A stretch of DNA of 43,032 nucleotides from Candidatus Latescibacterota bacterium (GTDB taxonomy: Bacteria > Latescibacterota > UBA2968 > UBA8231). Below the pieces are notes generated by a model. The model made no database searches. It was not told the DNA's origin and saw only the letters and a program-made list of their open reading frames with translations. Positions 15,996-38,700 of the stretch are shown here, piece after piece (positions within the stretch are counted from its first letter, which is position 1; each line of letters begins with the position of its first letter). The stretch covers positions 1-43,032 of the forward strand of contig RKRN01000271.1 in assembly GCA_007571365.1 (NCBI GenBank), read 5' to 3'. The translations under genes and the position numbers were made by a program.

Positions 15996-17330
15996 GTGCT
16001 TGACCTCCAGTGCGCCCACACTACGCCAATCCACGAGTTGCGCGCCGGCCTGACGACTTTTGCGACCATGGCCTATATTGTGGCGGTCAACCCGCTGATT
16101 CTCGGCGATGCGGGCATGCCGCGCGAAGCCGTGGCTGCAGCGACCTGCTTGGCGGCAGGTTTGGGCTCCATCCTAATGGGGCTACTGACCAATTATCCGC
16201 TTGCCGTGGCGCCAGGGATGGGCCTCAACGCCTTTTTCGCCTATTCTGTGGTGGGGGGGATGGGGCTTTCTTGGGAGGGCGCGTTGGCGGTGGTCTTCGT
16301 TTCCGGGCTCGTCTTTTTGGTTTTGACCCTTACAGATTTGCGCGAGGCCCTCATCAATGCCATTCCCACCAGTCTCAAGTGCGCCATCAGCGTCGGCGTC
16401 GGGTTTTTTATCGCCCTCGTTGGCTTCAAAAACGCCGGCATCGTGGTCCACAATCCAAGTACCAAGACGCTGGGGTTGGTCAACTTGGGCTATTTCGCCG
16501 ACCCGCAACTAACCCAGCTTTTGCCCTTTGGCGCGTCGCCTACAAGCCTTGGTCTGGCCCTGTTTGGCTTGGTGCTCACAGGCGTCTTAGTGGTGCGCCA
16601 AGTGCCGGGAGCGTTGCTGTTGGGGATTGCAGTCAGTGCGCTGCTGGCCGTGCCGCTGGGCTTAATGCCGCTAGGGGATCGCCCCCTCGTTGGCCTGCCT
16701 ACGGGGCTGGGGCAGACCGCGCTGGCCTTAGATTTTTCCGCCGTCTTTTCCTTTGGCTTAATCTCGGTGATTATCGCCTTTACCTTCGTCGATCTCTTCG
16801 ATACTGCCGGCACCTTGATCGGCGTGTCGAGCAAAGCGGGCCTGCTCGACACCAAGGGGCGGTTGCCCCGCGCTCGACGAGCGTTATTGGCCGACTCGCT
16901 GGCTACCATTTTCGGAGCCTCGGTTGGCACCAGCACGACCACGACCTATGTCGAGAGCGCGGCCGGGGTAGCCGCAGGTGGCCGCAGTGGGCTGACAGCC
17001 CTAGTAGTGGGGATATGCTTCCTATTGGCGTTGTTTCTGGCGCCGCTTTTGAGCTTGATACCGGCCGTAGCGACCGCTCCAGCCCTCGTAATAGTAGGCG
17101 TCTTTATGATGGAGCCGGTCCGGCGCATCGACTTTGGCAACTACTTGGAAGCCATTCCCGCATTTCTCGCCGTGGCGATTATGCCGTGGGCTTTCAGCAT
17201 CGCCGAAGGCATTGCCGCGGGGGTCTTGGCCTATGTCGGGCTGCATCTATTAGGCGGGCGGGGGCGCGAAGTATCGCCCGTGCTCTGGGTACTCGCCGCT
17301 TTGCTTTTGCTGCGCTACTTCTTGGCGTGA
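15996..17330 (+). CDS. NCS2-family purine permease (AzgA type)
   Basis: The 444-residue product is an AzgA-type transporter of adenine, guanine or hypoxanthine in the inner membrane, driven by proton symport. Typical segments are ELRAGLTTFATMAYIVAVNP at the start, APGMGLNAFFAYSV, VDLFDTAGTLIGVS and the FGASVGTSTTTTYVESAAG region near the middle, plus about 12 to 14 hydrophobic helices. It starts with GTG at 15996 after a CACGAGGA ribosome-binding site, 39 bases downstream of pntB, so it may be read through from the transhydrogenase transcript. An overlapping open frame of similar length in another frame is a shadow. Confidence 0.9.
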   Translation: MLDLQCAHTTPIHELRAGLTTFATMAYIVAVNPLILGDAGMPREAVAAATCLAAGLGSILMGLLTNYPLAVAPGMGLNAFFAYSVVGGMGLSWEGALAVVFVSGLVFLVLTLTDLREALINAIPTSLKCAISVGVGFFIALVGFKNAGIVVHNPSTKTLGLVNLGYFADPQLTQLLPFGASPTSLGLALFGLVLTGVLVVRQVPGALLLGIAVSALLAVPLGLMPLGDRPLVGLPTGLGQTALALDFSAVFSFGLISVIIAFTFVDLFDTAGTLIGVSSKAGLLDTKGRLPRARRALLADSLATIFGASVGTSTTTTYVESAAGVAAGGRSGLTALVVGICFLLALFLAPLLSLIPAVATAPALVIVGVFMMEPVRRIDFGNYLEAIPAFLAVAIMPWAFSIAEGIAAGVLAYVGLHLLGGRGREVSPVLWVLAALLLLRYFLA

Positions 17331-17349
17331 TAGCCTGCTAACTGGGTTC

Positions 17350-27678: not shown

Positions 27679-28458
27679 TCAGCCCTTCGGCACGACGAGT
27701 GCGCGGTTGCCGTAGGGGATTGAATCCATCTCGGTGTCGTAAACCTGCTCCAGAAAGTCGCGATCCCATGGCCGCTCGGCCGCTGGTAGCCGCTCCACTG
27801 CACCATCCTTGAGAAAGACGAAGTGATCCCCATAGAGGAAGGCACTGTTGGGATCGTGCAGGACGGCGAGGACCGTGAGGTCGGCCGCGACCAACTCGCG
27901 GATTAGGCGCAGCAGATGCGCTTGGTTTAGGAAGTCGAGGTGCGAGCTGGGCTCGTCGAGGAGGATGAGACGGGGCTGTTGGGCCAGCACCCGGGCGATG
28001 CGCACGAGCTGTTGCTCCCCGCCGGACAGCTCGGTATAGGGGCGATCTTTCAGATGTATAATGCCGACCTGCTCAAGCGCGGCAAAGCCAATCTCCACGT
28101 CCTCCTGCTTGGGAATATAGGCTACGTAGCTGGCGCGGCCGGTCAGAACTACATCCTGCACGGAAAAGGGAAAAACCGGCCGGTGGTGCTGGGGCAAGTA
28201 GCCGAGGACGCGAGCCCGACGCCGGGACGAAAACGAGCGAATCTCCTCTCCCATGATGTGTACTTTGCCGCGCTCAAAGTCGAGGAGACCGCCGAGAATG
28301 CGCATGAGGGTTGACTTGCCGCTGCCGTTCTTGCCGAGCAGGACGGAGAACTGCCCGGTCGGGATCTCCAGCGAGAGCTCGTTGAGAATCGGCCTGCCTT
28401 CGTAGGCAAAGAAGAGCTTCTCGACTTGGATAGCTGGTGCTGGCGTTAGGTCTCCCAT
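27679..28458 (-). CDS. ABC transporter ATP-binding protein (iron-siderophore / cobalamin type)
   Basis: The 259-residue ATPase has Walker A in LLGKNGSGKSTLM, the signature YTELSGGEQQLVRIARVL, Walker B in PRLILLDEPSSHLDF and the switch His in VLAVLHDPNSAF. It belongs to the FepC/BtuD group that energises import through a periplasmic binding protein and a FecCD permease. It overlaps the permease gene by 13 bases, so the two are translationally coupled. It is the last gene of the uptake operon. Confidence 0.93.
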   Translation of the reverse strand: MGDLTPAPAIQVEKLFFAYEGRPILNELSLEIPTGQFSVLLGKNGSGKSTLMRILGGLLDFERGKVHIMGEEIRSFSSRRRARVLGYLPQHHRPVFPFSVQDVVLTGRASYVAYIPKQEDVEIGFAALEQVGIIHLKDRPYTELSGGEQQLVRIARVLAQQPRLILLDEPSSHLDFLNQAHLLRLIRELVAADLTVLAVLHDPNSAFLYGDHFVFLKDGAVERLPAAERPWDRDFLEQVYDTEMDSIPYGNRALVVPKG

Positions 28459-29453
28459 CCGATCCGCGCCTTTTTGAGGAGAAAGATGAAGAACGGCCCG
28501 CCGAGCAAGGTGGTGAAAACCCCGACCGGGATTTCAAAAGAGGCCAACGTGCGCGAGCAGGTATCGACCAGCAGCAGAAAGGCCCCGCCAAAGGCAAAGG
28601 AAGCCGGCAGGGTGTGGCGGTTATCTGGCCCTAGTATCATGCGCATCATGTGCGGCACAGCGAGGCCAATCATGCCAATAACGCCGGCCACGGCGATTGC
28701 GGCCGAAGCGGCCAAGGTCGCCGGAATGAGGATCAGCACCCGCTCCCGCTCCGGGTTCAAGCCAACGGCGCGGGCTTCTTCGTCGCCCTGAGCTAGCACG
28801 TTCATGCGCCAGCGAAAGAGGAAGAGCCAGACCACGCCGATGCCCACTCCCGGTGCTGCCGAGCGCAGCTTGGCCCAGCTCGAATTGTGCAAGTTGCCCA
28901 TAGTCCAATGGACGATGGTTTGCAGCTTGTAGGGGTCGGTGAGGAACTGGACGATGGTCAGCAAAGCGGTGAAAATCCCGGTGACGATCACGCCAGAGAG
29001 GATGAGGGAGACTACCGACACGGTCTTGCGAGTGCGGGCCAAAAAGTACGCTAAGCCCACGGCGAGCAGGCTGAAGCCGAAGGCGGTTGGCTGGACTGGC
29101 AGGAACGGCAGGACTAGGGCGATAGCGGCGCCAAAAGCGGCGCCAGAGGAAAGCCCGAGGATGTAGGGCGCCACGAGGGGGTTGCGAAACAGGGCCTGCA
29201 AGGCATTGCCGGCCGCGGCCAAGGCCCCGCCCACCAGAAAGGTGAGGAGAATGCGCGGCAGTCGCACCTCCCACACGATGGTACCCACCAGCGACTCTTG
29301 GCTCCCGGTCGCTGTCTCGCGCAAGAGCAAGCCGTAGAGCCAAGCGAGAATCTGCCCGGCCTCGGCACTGGCCGAAGGGCCGAGCAGCAGAGAGCCGAAC
29401 AGTACCGGCAGCGGCAGGGCGTAAATGAGGCGGCGGCGGAACGCGCTATTCAC
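28446..29453 (-). CDS. FecCD-family ABC transporter permease
   Basis: A 335-residue polytopic inner-membrane protein of the FecCD/BtuC family, with about nine to ten helices. Typical segments are WEVRLPRILLTFLVGGALAAAGNALQALFRNPLVAPYILG, SGVIVTGIFTALL and VPHMMRMILGPDNRHTLPASFAFGGAFLLLVDT. I chose GTG at 29453, which lies within the last codons of the binding-protein gene (8-base overlap). An alternative ATG at 29507 would overlap it by 62 bases and add 18 atypical residues. Confidence 0.9.
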   Translation of the reverse strand: MNSAFRRRLIYALPLPVLFGSLLLGPSASAEAGQILAWLYGLLLRETATGSQESLVGTIVWEVRLPRILLTFLVGGALAAAGNALQALFRNPLVAPYILGLSSGAAFGAAIALVLPFLPVQPTAFGFSLLAVGLAYFLARTRKTVSVVSLILSGVIVTGIFTALLTIVQFLTDPYKLQTIVHWTMGNLHNSSWAKLRSAAPGVGIGVVWLFLFRWRMNVLAQGDEEARAVGLNPERERVLILIPATLAASAAIAVAGVIGMIGLAVPHMMRMILGPDNRHTLPASFAFGGAFLLLVDTCSRTLASFEIPVGVFTTLLGGPFFIFLLKKARIGWET

Positions 29454-30477
29454 GATTGTTCTCGGCTCCGTATGAGAGAAAAGGCAGCTCTCCGAGCCGT
29501 CCCCCATACAGCTTGTTTAGCAGGTCGGCCCGCAGTGCTTCTAAGTCTTTTGCGGAGAAGCGGTCTGGATGGCACCAGCGAGCGACGAGGTCGACGGTGA
29601 AGATGTATTTAAGGGTCCAGAAGTCGCATGAAAAGGGATCGGGCAGCTCGTGTACTCGCCCATTGCGCACGGCCGAAAGCGTGCGCCAGCCGGACAATTC
29701 ACCGAGTTCCTCAGCATCGAGCCGGTCATTGCACCACATAACGATTAGCTCTGGGTTCCAGACGAGGACATTTTCGAGATTGACGACGAGGTGCTCCAGC
29801 TCGCTATCGGCCGCCGCGTTGGTCCCGCCGGCCAGCTCGATTAGCTCCTGTACCGTGCTCTGGCGGCCGGACGTTTCCAGCGGCCCTTGATCCCACATGA
29901 AATACACGCTCGGCTTGGCGGCTCCTTGGCCGAGGGCGGTCTTGCGCTGCACCACCTCCAACTGCTCTTGGGCTATGGCGAGGAGCTCGGTCGCCCGTTC
30001 TTGGGTGCTGGTTAGCTCGCCGAGGGCGGTGATCTCGCGGTGAATATCCGCAAAGCACTCAATGGAGACTCCGAAGACCGGAATCGCCTTTTCTTCGAGG
30101 GCGGCGATCGACTCCTCCTGACCCGACCAGACGATGACTAGGTCTGGCCGCAATGCCACCATGCTCTCGATGTTGACGAAGTCCCAATTCCCCGGCGTCG
30201 GCAGGGTGCGCTCGCGGATGCGCTCGTCCATCGCCGCGTAGTACGGGAAAACGCTCTCTTGGTAGATATTGGTCGAAATGCCCACGAGGCGATCCTCGGC
30301 CCCGAGCATGTAGAGGCCGCTGAGCGCACTTTCGAGCAGGCAGACGATGCGCTCGGCCGGCCTGTCTAGTTCGATGCGGTGGCCGCGGAAGTCGGTGACC
30401 GCTACGCCTTCGGCGAGGATCGGAGCAGAGGCGAGTAAAAAAGCAAGGAGAAAGGGCTTAGCTGCTATGGGCATCAT
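29446..30477 (-). CDS. Periplasmic binding protein of the siderophore/cobalamin ABC importer
   Basis: The 343-residue protein starts with a signal peptide (MMPIAAKPFLLAFLLASAPILA) and then the BtuF/FhuD-like start VTDFRGHRIELDRPAERIVCL. The two lobes are joined by a long helix, with MVALRPDLVIVWSG before it and IVMWCNDRL after it. It would capture a chelate passed from the TonB receptor and deliver it to the permease. ATG 30477 leaves an 8-base gap after the receptor stop codon. An adjacent ATG at 30474 is equally possible. The ligand (Fe-siderophore, cobamide or haem) cannot be read from the sequence. Confidence 0.88.
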   Translation of the reverse strand: MMPIAAKPFLLAFLLASAPILAEGVAVTDFRGHRIELDRPAERIVCLLESALSGLYMLGAEDRLVGISTNIYQESVFPYYAAMDERIRERTLPTPGNWDFVNIESMVALRPDLVIVWSGQEESIAALEEKAIPVFGVSIECFADIHREITALGELTSTQERATELLAIAQEQLEVVQRKTALGQGAAKPSVYFMWDQGPLETSGRQSTVQELIELAGGTNAAADSELEHLVVNLENVLVWNPELIVMWCNDRLDAEELGELSGWRTLSAVRNGRVHELPDPFSCDFWTLKYIFTVDLVARWCHPDRFSAKDLEALRADLLNKLYGGRLGELPFLSYGAENNRE

Positions 30478-30485
30478 GGTGGGCG

Positions 30486-32501
30486 TCAGAACGAGACCAT
30501 CAGACCGCCGTTGACCGAAAAGCCGGGATCCTGAAATTGCCACGGCATCTCGAAGGTTTGGTTGGTGATGTTGTACGGTTCGAGATAGAGACTCAGGTCG
30601 TATCCGTCTTGGGTGCGGATGTGCTGCTCGAGACGGGCGTTTACTAGTATGTAGCCGTCGAGGGGTTCGGCGTTTTTATTGATATCTTGGTAGATGCCGC
30701 TATAGGACTGCACAGTAACCGTGGCCCGCAAGCCCGGCGAAAAGGTGAGGTGAACCCCAGCACCAAGGGCATTTTCTGGCACGAAGTTGATCTTGGCACC
30801 GACTTGGTTTTCATCGAGGTGCTCCTTCACTTCGGCATTGGTATAGGTGTAGTTGGCAAACCACTCCACCGTCTCGGCGAGGCGATGGGCGACCTCCAAC
30901 TCGACGCCAGAGGTCGTGGTGTTGCCGGCGTTGATGTCCTGCGACTGCGCGGGATCGCCCTCTGCCACGGGCACCACCCGCTGCACGATTTGGTCGTCGA
31001 TGACGATGTTGAAGCCGCGTACGCCGACCTGCACTCCTGCCACAGGCCGAAAATTTGCCCCCAAGTCGAGGCTGGTCCCCGACTCTGGTTTGATGTCTGG
31101 ATTCGGCAGATGGCCGCCTTTGCCGTCCGGGGGAACGGTGCCGCCTACTGATTTGAGGGAGGGGGCCTTGAAGCTGGTGCCTAGGTTGGCGTACACAGAA
31201 AGATCGTCGCTGTGGTTGTAGCGCCCCCCAACGCTGTACAGAGCCTTGTTCCAAGAGTTGCTGGTCTCATTTGGAGGAGCACCCTGCAACAAGTTGATGT
31301 CGTGCGAGATGATGTTGTAGCGCGCCCCGGCCCGCAGGATGAGGGCGTTCAAGCGGAACTCCTCTTGGGCGTAGAAGCCCCAGACGGTGGCGGTGGCGTC
31401 GTTGCCGGGACTTATCTCGCCGGACTCGCGCGAGGTCTCATACGCGGCGAGCTGATAGTCGGCTCCCACAGTGAGCACATCCGCCTCGCGGGTTGTGATG
31501 GACACGGACAAATCGGCTGGTACGACCGCCTGGTCAACCCCGTCCTCTGAGCGCAGTTCGCGGCTGGGCGGATCTTCCCAGATGCCATCCTCTTCCCAGC
31601 GGCGCACGTAGTCGCGGTAGCCGATTTTGGCTTGGACGGTGGCTTTGTCGGAGATCGGATTGGTGTAGCCGGCGTTCAGGGTGGTATAAGTGTGGCCGAA
31701 GTCGCGGTTGATGCGTCCGGCGTCGCCGGTGTGCCAAGTGCGGTGGGCGTACAGGGAGGCCCGCTGGCCCCGGTCGTTGAGGAAGTAGGTTCCTCGCATG
31801 TACATCTTGGTTTTTTCGTACTCCGGGTTGTCGTCCATCTTCAGCCACGAGCCTTCGGTGCCGTAGTCGGTGTAATCCGAATCCTCGTGGTGCCCCCCAA
31901 AGAAAAGGTGCAGGTTGCCGGCGGCCCGCTGGTGGAAGAAGCGCCCGCCCAAGGTGTTGTAGGAGCCGTAGTACGCCGAGGCACTGGTGCGCGTGCTCCG
32001 GACGCGCTCCTTGAGAATGAAGTTGGCCGTCCCCGCCAGCGGCGACTGATTACCGGCAAAATCCATGGCCAGATAAGTTGGATAGAGCACTGAGGCCGAG
32101 CCGCGCTGGTCTTCGACCCGCTGGAAGGCCCACGGGTCGAGGCTTTGGAGATCGACAAAGGCGTCGATCGGCAGGCCGTTGAGCATGTACCCCTTGTAGG
32201 TGTGTGCTAGGCCACCAGAGGACCCCCAATTGGCGTCGTTGCGGGAGAGGACGTTGGCAAAGTTGCCGGGGGTATATGAGAGAATCTCCGCCAAGTTGCC
32301 GTTGCCAAGGACTAAAGATCCCATCTCAGCGGCGGTAATAATAGAGATCTTCTGGGTCACATTCCCCGGCGTCTGCGGCAGCTTGGAGCCGGTAATGATC
32401 AGTTCTCCCATTTCATAGACCTCGACATCCGCTTCGTCATCAGCCGCCACGGGTCCGCTGATGAGAGAGATGGACAACGCACTGATGAGTAGGCGCTTCA
32501 T
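30486..32501 (-). CDS. TonB-dependent outer-membrane receptor
   Basis: The 671-residue protein has a signal peptide (ending SGPVAADDEA), then a short acidic stretch and a plug domain beginning MGELIITGSKLPQTPGNVTQKI, followed by a beta-barrel of alternating aromatic strands that ends in a Phe (LMVSF). NPDIKPESGTSLDLGANF and NTTTSGVELEVAHRLAETVEW are typical TonB-receptor barrel strings. At 671 residues it is at the shorter end of the family and resembles BtuB-like or small-siderophore receptors. The ATG at 32501 has AAAGGAG upstream. It sits directly ahead of the binding protein, permease and ATPase, so the four encode a complete outer-to-inner-membrane import route. Confidence 0.92.
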   Translation of the reverse strand: MKRLLISALSISLISGPVAADDEADVEVYEMGELIITGSKLPQTPGNVTQKISIITAAEMGSLVLGNGNLAEILSYTPGNFANVLSRNDANWGSSGGLAHTYKGYMLNGLPIDAFVDLQSLDPWAFQRVEDQRGSASVLYPTYLAMDFAGNQSPLAGTANFILKERVRSTRTSASAYYGSYNTLGGRFFHQRAAGNLHLFFGGHHEDSDYTDYGTEGSWLKMDDNPEYEKTKMYMRGTYFLNDRGQRASLYAHRTWHTGDAGRINRDFGHTYTTLNAGYTNPISDKATVQAKIGYRDYVRRWEEDGIWEDPPSRELRSEDGVDQAVVPADLSVSITTREADVLTVGADYQLAAYETSRESGEISPGNDATATVWGFYAQEEFRLNALILRAGARYNIISHDINLLQGAPPNETSNSWNKALYSVGGRYNHSDDLSVYANLGTSFKAPSLKSVGGTVPPDGKGGHLPNPDIKPESGTSLDLGANFRPVAGVQVGVRGFNIVIDDQIVQRVVPVAEGDPAQSQDINAGNTTTSGVELEVAHRLAETVEWFANYTYTNAEVKEHLDENQVGAKINFVPENALGAGVHLTFSPGLRATVTVQSYSGIYQDINKNAEPLDGYILVNARLEQHIRTQDGYDLSLYLEPYNITNQTFEMPWQFQDPGFSVNGGLMVSF

Positions 32502-32571: not shown

Positions 32572-33417
32572 TTAAAGCCCCAAAATGTCGAGACTATCGC
32601 GGTGGATTAGGGCGTGAATTTCGCGCTCGTCCAAGCGCGGCAGGGCCGTGCCATCGAGCATCTTATTCAATCCGTATAGCCCTTCAATGGAGGCGTCGAT
32701 CGTGGTAAAGGGATAGTCGCTGCCAAAGAGCAACTTGTGCCAGACCCCGTATTCCTGCACCAGCATCAGGCTGTGGTAGAGCTGGAAAGGTCGATAGTGG
32801 AGGGCGCTGACGTCGGCGTACACGTTGGGATGTTTGCGGATAACGGCCACGCACTCGCCTTCGTAGGGATGCGACAAGTGTGCCATAATGATTTTGGCCT
32901 GCGGGAAGCGGGTCGCCACCGGGTCGAGGTGGCGCGGCAAGGTACAGTCGAGTGGGGCTTGGGCGACGAACGTGGTGCCGGTGTGCAGTAGCACGGGCAG
33001 GTCGTGCGCGGCAGCGTAGTGCCACAGAGGGTCGAGGTTTTTGTCGTGCGGGTAGAAGCCGGCGTACATGGGGAGCAGCTTGATGCCGGTGAGGCCGAGC
33101 TCTTGGTGGCCGTAGGCCATTTCGTCTTGCCAGCCCTCTTGCGTGGGGTCCAGCGAGAGGAAGCCAATGAGTGCCCCCGGATGAGCGGCGACATAATCGG
33201 CGACATAGCGGTCGTCAACCCACAGGCCCGCCCGCCGGGCCTTGCCGCCGAAGACGATGGTTTTGTCGCAGCTTGGGGCACCCGCCCGATAGGCCGCATA
33301 GGTAACGGTTAGGTCGAGGGATTCGTTGGCTTTAGCCACTTGGGCCGCTTGTTGGCGGAATTGGTCGGTAAAATGCTCGGGGTACTGCCAAGCGTGGCTG
33401 TGGACGTCGATGATCAT
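32572..33417 (-). CDS. Amidohydrolase family 2 protein
   Basis: A 281-residue TIM-barrel hydrolase with all expected metal-site residues: His6 and His8 in IIDVHSHAWQY, a His in LPVLLHTGTTF, a His in IIMAHLSHPY and the catalytic Asp in LLFGSDYPFTT. A GIKLLPMYAG segment lies before the strand 5 His. Relatives include ACMSD-like decarboxylases and lactone hydrolases. It heads a probable operon, ending 70 bases before the TonB receptor start, with both on the minus strand. A link to the imported compound, such as processing of its organic part, is possible but unproven. Confidence 0.85.
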   Translation of the reverse strand: MIIDVHSHAWQYPEHFTDQFRQQAAQVAKANESLDLTVTYAAYRAGAPSCDKTIVFGGKARRAGLWVDDRYVADYVAAHPGALIGFLSLDPTQEGWQDEMAYGHQELGLTGIKLLPMYAGFYPHDKNLDPLWHYAAAHDLPVLLHTGTTFVAQAPLDCTLPRHLDPVATRFPQAKIIMAHLSHPYEGECVAVIRKHPNVYADVSALHYRPFQLYHSLMLVQEYGVWHKLLFGSDYPFTTIDASIEGLYGLNKMLDGTALPRLDEREIHALIHRDSLDILGL

Positions 33418-33469
33418 GTGGTCTCAGATTGCGAAAAAGTGCCTATTGTTATTATTTTTTTTAGAAACT

Positions 33470-33483
33470 TTATTATATAATAA
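33470..33483. promoter_or_regulatory. AT-rich palindrome with a -10-like TATAAT in the divergent promoter region
   Basis: TTATTATATAATAA at 33470-33483 is a perfect 14-base palindrome and includes TATAAT at 33476-33481 on the plus strand. It lies in the 163-base gap between the minus-strand uptake operon and the plus-strand secreted-protein gene. It could serve as a -10 for both directions, but no -35 with standard spacing is clear. Confidence 0.35.
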
Positions 33484-33580
33484 GAAAAGAGAGGCTCCCG
33501 GTCAGCCATCAATAGCTAGCTACTTGCTGGTGCTCTGCGGAGTGCAAGGGGCGGCTAAATCACATGACAAGGAGAACATC

Positions 33581-35485
33581 ATGAAGCGAGCGTTTTTGAC
33601 TATTGTCTTGTTAACTTTCGGCGTTCATACGGCCTGGGCCAATGAACGCGAGTCCATGGCCATCAAGACCTATGAGGCGGGCACGGCAATGGAGCCACTG
33701 GTGTTGCCGGCGGTTACGGGTGGGACGCCGCCGCTGATGTACAGCCTGTCGGGCCTGCCGGCCGGGCTGTCGTTTGACCCGGCCACGCAGACGATTTCAG
33801 GTACGCCCATTGCGGTCCGCGAACCCACTGTGGTCACGTACACGGTTACGGACGCCAATGGTGCTTCTCGTTCGCTGCCGTTTCTCGTGGCGGTCACTCC
33901 GTCTTCTTTGGCTGCTCCGGCCGCGCTAGTGGCCGAGGATTTTATGGGCACCGACGGCGTTGGCGACCAAGGCGGCTTCGTGCTGTTGACTTGGGATTTG
34001 TCGGAAGACCACGACTCGCTCGTCGGCTACCGCATCTTCCGCGAAATGCCCGGGTTGGGCGGTGAGATGATGCCTTGGGCTACAGTACATGCGGTGCCGG
34101 GCGCGAACATCGGGCGCGCTGTCGTCGCTGTGTCCGACAATGTCGCCGCCAATTGGGGCATTGCCGCCGTGCCGCGGCTGAAGAGTACCGAAGAGATGCT
34201 ACAGCTTTCAGACGTCACCGAGACGGAAGAGCCGGCGCGGGCGATCGACAACATCCCGCCGGCACCCATATCGTCTCTCCGCGTCTTGGACGCGCCCGAC
34301 GACGAGGGCGGCCGCATCTTCCTGCGCTGGAAGCACTCGCCGGCTGGCGGCACCAAAGGCTACCGCATCTATCGCCGCGCTGCGGGTGCAGACGAGTTCG
34401 TCCTGTTGGCGCAAATCGAGAGCAGCGCAATTTCGTTTGTCGATGAAACGGCACTCAACGGCGTGCGCTACACCTATCAGGTGCGGCCCTTCGACGATGA
34501 CAACGAGACCACGGCCAATATCGAGCAAACGGCCATGGCCATTCGCAATCGGGTGGTCGATAGCGAAGGGCGCGCTCTGTTCGGCCTATTTGGTGCGGAC
34601 AACAGCATCGGCTTCGACGACTTCTTCTTGTTTGCCGACCGCTTCGGTCTGACGGCAGAAGATTCTGCGTTTGATCCGGCGTTTGACCTAGCGCCGAGCG
34701 CGGCGATCGACTTCGACGATTTCTTCATATTTGCCGACAACTTCGGTCGCAGCACCGGGGCGGCGGGCAAGCGCGTGCCCCGGTTTGCCGGTCTCAACGC
34801 CGATGCGCGGCTGTATCTAGAGGCGCGGACCGCGCTGCCGAGCGTGGGGGAGGACTTCGTCCTCGATGTGCGCGTGGCCGACTTCGCCGCGGTGAAAGGC
34901 TACGGCATACAGGTGCAGTACGAGGCCGACAAGCTGGAGTTTGTCCAAGCGCGTACCGAGCAGCCGCTGGGTGAGAGCGAGTTGGCTGCGCCGCAGGTGC
35001 TGGCGGACGAAGCCGGGGTTTTGACGGTTGCTGCGCATGGGGGCGTAGTGTCCGACGGCGAGGTAGCACTGAGCTTGGTCTTCCGCGCGACGACTGAAGT
35101 CGAGAATGCGGTCATCGAGGTCGCCGACAGCCAGACCTATGACAGCGCGTTTGGCTTCAACCGTTTGGCACTGCCGGCTCCGGTGCAGGTACAGACGCGG
35201 CCGCAGGCATTTGCGCTGGCCAACAACTATCCGAATCCGTTCAACCCGGCGACGACGATCAAATATGCGTTGCCGCAGGCGGCGGACGTGGAGCTGACCG
35301 TGTATAACGTCGTCGGTCAGGCCGTGCAGACGCTAGTGGCCGAGCACCAAAGCGCGGGTCGCTACGTGGTGGAGTGGGACGCGACCGATGATAGCGGGCA
35401 TAGCTTGTCGTCGGGAATGTATTTCTACCGCTTGGAGGCGGGCGGAGCGTTCTACGAAACCAAGAAGATGCTGCTGCTCAAGTAG
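33581..35485 (+). CDS. Secreted modular protein: putative Ig, two FN3-like, dockerin-like and cohesin-like domains, sorting tag
   Basis: The 634-residue protein opens with a signal peptide (residues 1-20). Domain order is: a putative-Ig (He_PIG) domain at ~25-108; FN3-like domains at ~112-205 and ~228-320 (LLTWDLSEDHDSLVGYRIFR and FLRWKHSPAGGTKGYRIYRR); a dockerin-like pair at ~335-393 (GFDDFFLFADRFG and DFDDFFIFADNFG); a cohesin-like domain at ~398-535; and the sorting / FlgD-like domain at ~541-634 (NNYPNPFNPATTIKYALP...VYNVVGQ) with a KKMLLLK end. The Ca-binding loops of the dockerin-like part have lost several acidic ligands. ATG 33581 follows AAGGAGAAC; the open frame extends to 33326, but the leader looks like a signal peptide only from this Met. 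Probably cell-surface or secreted. Confidence 0.87.
   Translation: MKRAFLTIVLLTFGVHTAWANERESMAIKTYEAGTAMEPLVLPAVTGGTPPLMYSLSGLPAGLSFDPATQTISGTPIAVREPTVVTYTVTDANGASRSLPFLVAVTPSSLAAPAALVAEDFMGTDGVGDQGGFVLLTWDLSEDHDSLVGYRIFREMPGLGGEMMPWATVHAVPGANIGRAVVAVSDNVAANWGIAAVPRLKSTEEMLQLSDVTETEEPARAIDNIPPAPISSLRVLDAPDDEGGRIFLRWKHSPAGGTKGYRIYRRAAGADEFVLLAQIESSAISFVDETALNGVRYTYQVRPFDDDNETTANIEQTAMAIRNRVVDSEGRALFGLFGADNSIGFDDFFLFADRFGLTAEDSAFDPAFDLAPSAAIDFDDFFIFADNFGRSTGAAGKRVPRFAGLNADARLYLEARTALPSVGEDFVLDVRVADFAAVKGYGIQVQYEADKLEFVQARTEQPLGESELAAPQVLADEAGVLTVAAHGGVVSDGEVALSLVFRATTEVENAVIEVADSQTYDSAFGFNRLALPAPVQVQTRPQAFALANNYPNPFNPATTIKYALPQAADVELTVYNVVGQAVQTLVAEHQSAGRYVVEWDATDDSGHSLSSGMYFYRLEAGGAFYETKKMLLLK
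35201..35485 (+). repeat. Sorting-domain copy 1
   Basis: 285 bases encoding the C-terminal sorting domain, closely similar at DNA level to 38890-39177 and 42193-42474. The similarity continues past the stop codon into the downstream terminator. Confidence 0.85.
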
Positions 35486-35706: not shown

Positions 35707-38700
35707 ATGATGCCTGCAAAGTTGTTGCTGCGGTTGGCTTATGTGTCTTGGCTGCTGGCTGCTTATTTAATGTTGGGGTGGGCTGGGGACGCGGCGGCGC
35801 AAACAGAGCGGTTTGCCCTGTCGGTAAATCCGAGTAAGATACGCGAGGACGCCGGAGCGACCGATATTGAGGTAACAGTCGAAGTTACGGATGATATAGC
35901 GGTGGATACGGATACCTATGTGCTCTTGAGTGCCCCTCAAGCAACCCTTAATAGTCGCTTCATCGTCCTGCTGCCTTGGCTCAAAATTGCGGCTGGGGAG
36001 AAAAAGGCCACCGCAACCATCACCTTTATTCCTACCAATGATAGCACTCCCGACAGCAATCTTCTCATTGAAATCAGCGGCAATGCTGGCAGTGAGACGG
36101 TTGCTTCGACGACGATTACGCTGATCGACGACGACAGGCCTAGCACCAAGATCAGTTTGTCGGCCGATACTATCGAGCTTAACAGGTTCGACGGCGCGAC
36201 CGAGGTTGCCATAACGGCCACTTTGGACGGCAAGGTGCGACCGCAGGCGACGAGTTTCGTCTTGATCATCGCCGATCATCCCGATCTGACGGACGTGCCC
36301 AACACCGATGCCGATGACAACGGCAGGATTGACGATGCGGATGCGACCAAGGACAATCGCGAAGCACGGCGCGACGTTGACTACACGGTTATGCTGACGA
36401 CGCTTACCATTCCGATAAATTCGGTGTCGGGAACGGCGACGCTTACCATCACGCCCAAAAACCGGCTGCCAGGCACGATTCGGGTGGCGACGCCCGATAA
36501 CGATGCCGGTACGGCGGGGATCCAGACGGCGGATGGACTAGCGATCGACCCGGTCGATATAAAAATAGGCAAAGAGAGTGTTGCCATGCCCTCGGCCATT
36601 ACGCTCAGTCAAAACAGCATCCGCGAGGATGCTGGTGCGACGCCCATTGAGCTAAGGGTTTCCTTGACGAATGCCTTGGTACGAGACGAGACAGCGCGAT
36701 TCGCCATTTTGCCAGACGGTGCTGCCTTACCGTCGGGTCGTACTGTAACGGGCACCCCGATTCGCGATGTGCATTACCGGCTGTCCTTTGGTCCGCCGCT
36801 CGTCATTGCGGCCGGTGCGACCGAAGGGACGACGACGATCACCCTAACCCCCGCCAACGACACCGAGGTGGCTACGCGCGATTCGATCTATATACAAGTT
36901 TCGGTCGGCGGTGCATCGGAGATTAAAGCACTAGCCATTGTCGATGACGACGCGGTTAGCACGGCCGTCGCGCTGACGGTCGCGCTGACCTCAATAAGCG
37001 AGGGGGCGGGTAATGTAGTGGTGGGGGTAACCGGAACCCTGAATGGGAAGGTTCTCGCCACGGACGTGGTCGTGTCCTTGACCATTGATTCTAATTTCGA
37101 CGAGGCGGTGCGCGATTTGGATTACATGGCTGCCCTGCGTCCGCTTACCATTCCGGCTGGTCAAGTGTCGGGGACGACGACGATCACCATCAGTCCTACG
37201 GCCGACGATATAGCGGACGATGGCGAAAAAATCCGACTGACCGGACAAATCTCCAGCGGGCCTAGCGCGTTGAGGATCGGTGCCGTAGAAATAATGCTCA
37301 GAGACGCGGGCGTGGGTGGAGTGCCTTCCTTTGCGACGGGTGCTTCCATCCCCGAGATCACCTATTCGCTTGGGGTGCCGCTTGCTGCTTGGGTCCTGCC
37401 GGAAGCTACGGGCGGCGACGCTCCGCTGAGGTATAGTGTCTCGACTCTGCCGGCGGGCTTGACGTTTGACGAGGCCACGCGGTCGCTGGCCGGTACGCCG
37501 ACGCAAGCGACCAATGGCGCGGTCAACATCATCTATACGGTGATCGACAGCAAGGGTGCCAGCAGTGCGTTGATTTTCTCCATCGCAGTCGAAGATATCC
37601 AACTGCCGCCCCTGCTTGCCGGTGCTCAGCTAACAGCGACGCCAGCGGAGATTTTTGAGGACGCTGGGGCGACGCAAATCGCGTTGACCGTGACTTTGGC
37701 GGAGGCTAGTGCCACAGCCGAGGTGGTGACGTTCACAATTGCAGCTCCAAGCGAAGATGTGGAGGGTACGCCGGCCGTGCGCGATGTAGATTACGTGGCG
37801 TCCTTGGAGGCGTTCGTCACCATTCCGGTCGGTGCGACCGTTGGGACGGCAACCCTCATCGTCACCCCCGCGGACAACACCGCAGAGGATGGCCTGAGAG
37901 CCCTAGGGGTGCAAGCTGCTTTGACTTCTGGTGCGACGCTAAGGACGGACATCAAGATCGTCGACGACGACGCACTCGGTACGTCCATCTCCCTGACGGC
38001 GAGTCCAAACGCGATAAGCGAAGAAAGCCCTGAGACCACGATCGCGGTGACTGCTACCTTAAACGGCCGGGCGTTGGCAGAGGACATAACGGTGAGTGTG
38101 TCCATTGATGCTGCGTCCACAGCGACGCGCGATGTGGACTACGCTGCGGTGTTCCAGCCGCTGATTGTGATTCCAGCCGGCTCGGTAACAGGGTCCACGC
38201 AGATTGCGCTCCGCACAATTGCCGACGGCATAGCCGAGGGTAACGAGACCATCAAGCTGACCGGGGCGGTCGACGGGTTAGTGGGGGGCGAGGTAGAAAT
38301 CATACTGACCGAACGGAGTGCGGCCGGTTCGTCTCTTTCCTTTGTTAGCACTGAGATCGCCGACCAAGCGTACACGGTTGGGACCGCGATTACCGCTCTC
38401 GTACTGCCGGCCGCTACGGGTGGTATTGGCGGCTTGATGTACACCGTTACGGCCTTGCCGGCTTTGCCGGCGGGCTTGGCGTTTGACACGGCCACGCGGA
38501 CGATTGCCGGTACGCCGACGCAAGCGACCGATGGCGCGGTCGACATCATCTATACAGTGATCGACGAAGGCAGTAACGCCGATGTGTTGACCTTCTCCAT
38601 CACAGTCAACAAGGCTCTGACCTTCGACCTCGACCTGTTTGCCGCTGCGTTAGGCGGTGCTGGTAAGATCATTCCGACGGCTGTGCATGAATTTGTCGAG

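Follow-up and report, generated by a model that had tools for sequence, protein, structure and literature searches.

Does an EF-hand-type loop lodged in a Calx-beta-like repeat provide a second calcium site in a domain that already has one, or does it serve another end? The question is raised by positions 1 to 43,032 of contig RKRN01000271.1 (assembly GCA_007571365.1) from a Candidatus Latescibacterota bacterium, a stretch of 43,032 nucleotides that we refer to as the window. An earlier note on this DNA had pointed to such a loop in the second repeat (D2) of two paralogues, P0001 and P0002, and had proposed that a second, different Ca2+ site of this kind could make a calcium switch for adhesion. 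Both proteins have He_PIG Ig domains in their middle, which in P0001 are preceded by Calx-beta-like repeats and followed by a C-terminal T9SS sorting domain (Table 1). Since type A sorting domains score above the cut-off in P0001 and P0002, both qualify as T9SS cargo, and a SprA_N match of 87.4 bits, lying in a frame of 2156 aa, represents the translocon in the same genome. In a tree of roughly the first four repeats, built with six orthologues, the two proteins are sisters with a support of 100/100, and the duplication is therefore specific to the lineage of the window. A third T9SS-type protein, P0003 (window 33326-35485), contains two Asp-rich repeats (DDFFxFADxFG) that are reminiscent of dockerin and adjoin a weak cohesin match (13.7 bits, below the cut-off of 24.1); a Pfam scan of residues 385-478, the repeat stretch, returned no match. 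Upstream of the three surface proteins, a minus-strand cluster (window 27679-32501) encodes a TonB-dependent receptor, a periplasmic binding protein, a FecCD permease and an ABC ATPase, which resembles a metal-chelate or cobalamin uptake set. At 15996-17341 of the window, an ORF of 444 codons is overlapped almost entirely by one of 443 codons that lies on the same strand in another frame.

Table 1. Coordinates in the window of the two host proteins and of their features.
Feature	Protein	Position (strand)	Remarks
Whole protein	P0001	35704..39177 (+)	1157 aa surface protein; signal peptide (by eye)
Whole protein	P0002	39217..42474 (+)	1085 aa, tandem paralogue of P0001
D2, Calx-beta-like domain with inserted loop	P0001	36136..36579 (+)	
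D2, domain used for structure model	P0002	39712..40122 (+)	
EF-hand-type loop DADDNGRIDDAD	P0001	36307..36342 (+)	Residues 202-213; Asn at position 5
EF-hand-type loop DTNGDGTIDNAD	P0002	39883..39918 (+)	Residues 223-234
Post-loop segment ATKDNREA	P0001	36343..36366 (+)	No amino-acid change, 8 copies
Post-loop segment ATKDNREA	P0002	39919..39942 (+)	Invariant in 8 copies
Arg codon at NCX1 E385 equivalent	P0001	36184..36186 (+)	
Arg codon at NCX1 E385 equivalent	P0002	39760..39762 (+)	
Asp of RDVDY, NCX1 D421 equivalent	P0001	36379..36381 (+)	
Asp of RDVDY, NCX1 D421 equivalent	P0002	39955..39957 (+)	
T9SS type A sorting domain	P0001	38917..39150 (+)	TIGR04183, 34.1 bits, cut-off 23
T9SS type A sorting domain	P0002	42220..42462 (+)	TIGR04183, 37.7 bits, cut-off 23

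Translation at the two loop coordinates is exact and in frame, and the loops align column for column within repeat 2, between IIxDHPxL and DATKDNREAxRDVDYT, which bears out the earlier statement that they occupy the same place in both paralogues. Searches by protein (100 genomes) and by profile (the 64 genomes of the phylum) placed the domain in only seven genomes, all members of the window's genus. This genus is represented by 11 genomes; apart from the window's own, six contain the domain, each with the complete pattern, and in the remaining four it was not found. We compared eight D2 copies, two from the window and six from same-genus genomes. All of them display Asp at position 1, Asp or Asn at positions 3 and 5, Gly at position 6, Ile or Met at position 8 and Asp at positions 9 and 12, so the 12-residue Ca-loop pattern that had been claimed for two paralogues (D/[DN]/[DN]/G/D/D at 1, 3, 5, 6, 9 and 12) extends to the whole set. 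Positions 2, 4, 7 and 10 are variable and position 11 is always Ala, while the ligand positions show only changes between Asp and Asn, with no copy having Asn at both 3 and 5. When P0001 and P0002 were each shuffled 20000 times, the EF-type pattern arose in 34 and 37 cases, respectively; this frequency (<0.2%), together with conservation in 8/8 copies, rules out a chance match.

Is this conservation directed at the ligands, as the earlier note had suggested? At loop positions 1, 3, 5, 6, 9 and 12, pN/pS is 0.26, compared with 0.84 at the non-ligand positions (2, 4, 7, 10 and 11) and 0.32 for the whole D2 domain, values that come from few sites in related sequences. The ATKDNREA segment that follows the loop has a pN of 0 and a pS of 0.33 in the eight copies. 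Columns consisting purely of Asp and Asn account for all five ligand columns and for 9 of the 18 columns outside the loop in which these residues are in the majority; because of these nine, and because the whole domain is highly conserved, the conservation of the ligands is partly non-specific. The signal of selection is thus suggestive, not overwhelming, in the aligned copies. The strict Dx[DN]xDG motif is found in six of the eight, including P0002, while P0001 and the G006 copy deviate by an Asn at position 5, a residue that usually weakens binding in such loops and counts against the P0001 site.

The earlier note took D2 to be a Calx-beta domain. Genus-family repeats, reduced from 117 to 112 by containment, gave an alignment of 109 (A2) after omission of the three shortest, and from it we built a model of P0002 residues 166-302, which reveals a Calx-beta-type fold (pLDDT 89.2, pTM 0.83). 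In the model, strands C (39-46) and D (83-86) enclose a C-D insertion of ~36 residues, within which the EF-hand-type segment occupies residues 58-69. Confidence is lower in the C-D connection (block means 69-79), where residues 67-69 form a three-residue helical turn with no helix of at least four residues. The segment is therefore a loop in the structure prediction for which the earlier note had called; neither a segment folded otherwise nor homologues devoid of acidic residues at the ligand positions were encountered. A previous model, built from eight sequences (pLDDT 66.5), was poor and was excluded from fold claims; an 8-residue, low-confidence helix after the loop is seen in that model only and is absent from the better one.

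Comparison of the model with known structures gave the N-terminal domain of EndoBT-3987 as the best match (Z 10.2, rmsd 3.3, 116 aligned). Calx-beta domains follow, with Drosophila CALX CBD1 (3ead) matched by Foldseek and superposed with Z 8.3 and rmsd 3.1 over 102 aligned residues, NCX1 CBD1 (2dpk) matched at a Foldseek E of 4.2e-4 and a TM of 0.58/0.63 (Z 7.8, rmsd 3.2, 107 aligned with the structural aligner) and the integrin beta4 domain just above an E of 0.001 in Foldseek. In profile-profile comparison, the repeat family (A2) matches the Calx-beta repeats found with PF03160 (A3) with 97.4% probability and an E of 9.2e-12, while the eight D2 alone match the Calx-beta profile weakly (21%, 34 columns). 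Sequence searches of the PDB recovered NCX and integrin beta4 with A3, no Calx-beta chain with A2, and 3g7k alone (E 0.59) with alignment A1. At the Pfam level, P0002 scores 16.8 bits against PF03160, short of the cut-off of 27, P0001 has no listed match, and the genome has no PF03160 match at E<=1e-4. The Calx-beta label is consequently right for D2 as far as predicted fold and profile-profile relation go, and lies below the Pfam cut-off.

According to PMC3386913, the Ca2+ ligands of NCX1 CBD1 are E385, D421, D446, D447, I449, E451 and D498-D500, with E454 nearby. We placed these positions on the Calx-beta profile via PDB alignment and read them across the 112 genus-family repeats. In all eight D2 copies, E385 is replaced by Arg, the D446/D447 pair by Asn or Ser followed by Arg or Gln, E451 falls in a gap and E454 is replaced by Gly, the D421 equivalent alone being kept. 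By comparison, the E385 position is Glu in 86 of the 99 genus-family repeats without the full loop. Other paralogues in the genus, such as L032, L037, L031 and L025, have a repeat 2 with Lys at the E385 position and no EF-type loop, and loss of the canonical site is thus apparently older than the loop or independent of it. The loss of canonical ligands from D2 contradicts, for the window, the premise that the domain already binds Ca2+, a premise that may hold for four other repeats. Indeed, four of the five other repeats with the full loop keep the equivalents of E385, D421, E451 and E454, with a mixed D446/D447 pair (L066:1378-1773, L022:1513-1902, L021:1513-1920 and L033:1510-1917, from three same-genus genomes), and these, which lie outside the window, may be better candidates for a two-site Calx-beta domain. 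The loop pattern and its conservation, along with the possibility of a dual site elsewhere in the genus, speak for a second Ca2+ site acting as a switch beside a working Calx-beta site, but with the first site gone from D2 in 8/8 copies and no sign of regulation, we regard this as very unlikely, and the switch for adhesion is not supported. At the ~10 mM Ca2+ of sea water, a typical site would remain occupied, so, if the hosts are marine, a permanently filled structural site is more likely than a switch.

How common is the loop? The full 12-residue pattern occurs in 13 of the 112 genus-family repeats, that is the eight D2 and five others, each time shortly before DY, and its Dx[DN]x[DN]G core in 18. 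For comparison, we took further Calx-beta-type repeats from inside and outside the phylum, 406 covering 60 model positions or more, and retained the 395 that cover at least 85. None of these 395 has the full pattern and two have the core. The comparison set was gathered through PF03160 and the genus family through matches to the loop-bearing domain, so the two rates are not unbiased. At the level of genomes, the C-D pattern matched in 10 of the 64 from the phylum, seven belonging to the window's genus and the other three matches being out of frame. A looser loop pattern matched in 21 of 386 genomes and a third pattern in 33 of 193. The 45 loci scanned further comprised 15 of the 17 new ones from the looser pattern (L068-L082, which include one locus elsewhere in the window's genome; L083 and L084, loop-bearing repeats of the same genus, were omitted) and 30 kept of the 39 third-pattern matches, and no Calx-beta-type match with E<=0.01 was obtained for any of the 45. 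Because these search patterns require particular residues ahead of DY, loops of another form would escape them. Within the genomes and repeats surveyed, a loop that is a widespread feature of Calx-beta domains is ruled out.

An internal comparison is offered by repeat 4 of the eight orthologues. There, the full pattern is present in one of eight (G003, L066:1378-1773), and some of the others have a D-rich C-D loop. Across L042-L047 and the window, this loop is graded from complete through degenerate (DTDDNGNVVD, DADAAGTVVD) to short, as in both window proteins, a series that looks as if a calcium loop were being gained or were decaying. The contrast between repeat 4 and D2 is the best sign that the D2 loop is retained for a reason. 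It also bears on a simpler account, in which the segment is an acidic, flexible linker, EF-like by composition and free of metal. The Asp-rich character of the proteins, the occurrence of degenerate D-rich loops in the corresponding part of other repeats and a loop confidence below that of the core in the model would all fit such a linker. This account nevertheless strikes us as quite unlikely, given the scarcity of the pattern among shuffles, the restriction of ligand changes to Asp and Asn, and loops that are complete in every D2 copy, unlike the mostly short or degenerate ones in repeat 4 of these proteins.

Since the loop carries Gly at position 6 and ligands at positions 1, 3, 5, 9 and 12 in 8/8 D2 copies, it might be taken for a true EF-hand. 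However, the PROSITE-like EF-hand pattern has a hydrophobic residue at position 13, which is Ala in all eight copies, and no exiting helix is predicted after the loop in the better model. These two features rule out a true EF-hand; the Pfam EF-hand_5 score, 11.9 bits, is below its cut-off of 25.9. Dockerin F-hands also have a 12-residue loop with Asp at position 12, and D2 shares this with dockerin type I and EF-hand loops, from which it differs by its single loop, by Ala 13, by the lack of a predicted exiting helix and by its sub-cut-off Pfam scores. We considered whether it might be half a dockerin, docking onto a cohesin-like domain such as the weak one in neighbouring P0003. A 51-aa piece does match Dockerin_1 weakly (14.8 bits, cut-off 22.9), as P0003 does cohesin, but both matches are below cut-off and D2 offers one F-hand loop with no helix of at least four residues, which makes docking of this kind extremely unlikely.

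We think it somewhat probable, from the alignments and the model, that in D2, which has lost the canonical Ca2+ cluster, the EF-hand-type loop is a substitute structural site stiffening the joint between D2 and D3. The loop would bind one Ca2+ through positions 1, 3, 5, 7 (by its carbonyl), 9 (directly or via a water molecule) and 12, and the bound ion would order the long C-D insertion and help to stiffen the joint of repeat 2 to repeat 3. We propose stiffening of this joint because the Ca-binding end of the NCX1 Calx-beta domain faces the next domain. Comparable effects are described in the literature, Ca2+ at CBD1 rigidifying the CBD1-CBD2 pair of NCX (CBD12) (PMC3386913) and calcium stiffening the linkers between repeats of RTX adhesins (PMC7493085). 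We thus infer a site that binds Ca2+, is normally filled and structural, and replaces the lost one, neither a second site nor a switch. Tentatively, this could represent a swap of sites within one fold, a Calx-beta-like multi-ion site being lost and an EF-hand-type single-ion loop being gained at the neighbouring C-D connection. At the same position in other repeats of the genus, the motif stands alongside most canonical ligands, so that combinations with and without the canonical site both exist.

A different role for bound Ca2+ would be to shape an adhesive surface, with the loop presenting a ligand close to the protein's outer tip. The ~36-residue insertion with its invariant ATKDNREA, the location on a T9SS-type surface protein and the presence, among the closest fold matches, of N-terminal domains from glycan-active proteins of Bacteroides are consistent with this role. 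Nevertheless, a common fold says nothing on function, and the placement of D2 at the tip, far from the C-terminal anchor, is itself presumed; we find it unlikely. The D2 loop also lends itself to testing as a design feature of surface proteins in an uncultured phylum. Calcium loops of this type are thought to arise repeatedly in unrelated folds. Here, one fold within one genus displays canonical ligands only, the loop only, both, or degenerate loops, and these four states form a natural series in which the emergence of such loops, their replacement of older metal sites and their decay can be tested. An enrichment of Calx-beta domains has been noted in metagenomes of bacteria from Ircinia sponges, in a paper whose text does not mention Latescibacter (PMC9531527).

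Among the closest known systems are the Calx-beta domains of NCX1 (CBD1/CBD2), Drosophila CALX and integrin beta4, with which D2 shares the predicted fold, the profile relation and the D421 equivalent, and from which it differs by loss of the canonical ligands, by the C-D insertion and by a score below the Pfam cut-off. Its best structural match, the BT_3987-like N-terminal domain (EndoBT-3987, 3poh/6t8i), has an identity of 16%. For the loop itself, titles and abstract openings in the literature searched describe no EF-hand or Dx[DN]xDG loop in a Calx-beta or Ig-like domain, and neither "Calx" nor "Ig-like" occurs in the main text of PMC3123361. The motif class is already known, and its Calx-beta-fold context, which we did not find in print, is new within the literature searched. 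Rigden et al. (2011, PMC3123361) place Dx[DN]xDG loops of non-EF folds in 16 structural contexts and expect that more may await discovery. With an Asn at position 5, P0001 falls outside their strict motif, but D2 shares with these loops the Asp or Asn at positions 1, 3 and 5, Gly 6 and a downstream acidic residue, as well as insertion in an unrelated fold and, as in several of the examples given there, a lineage-restricted spread.
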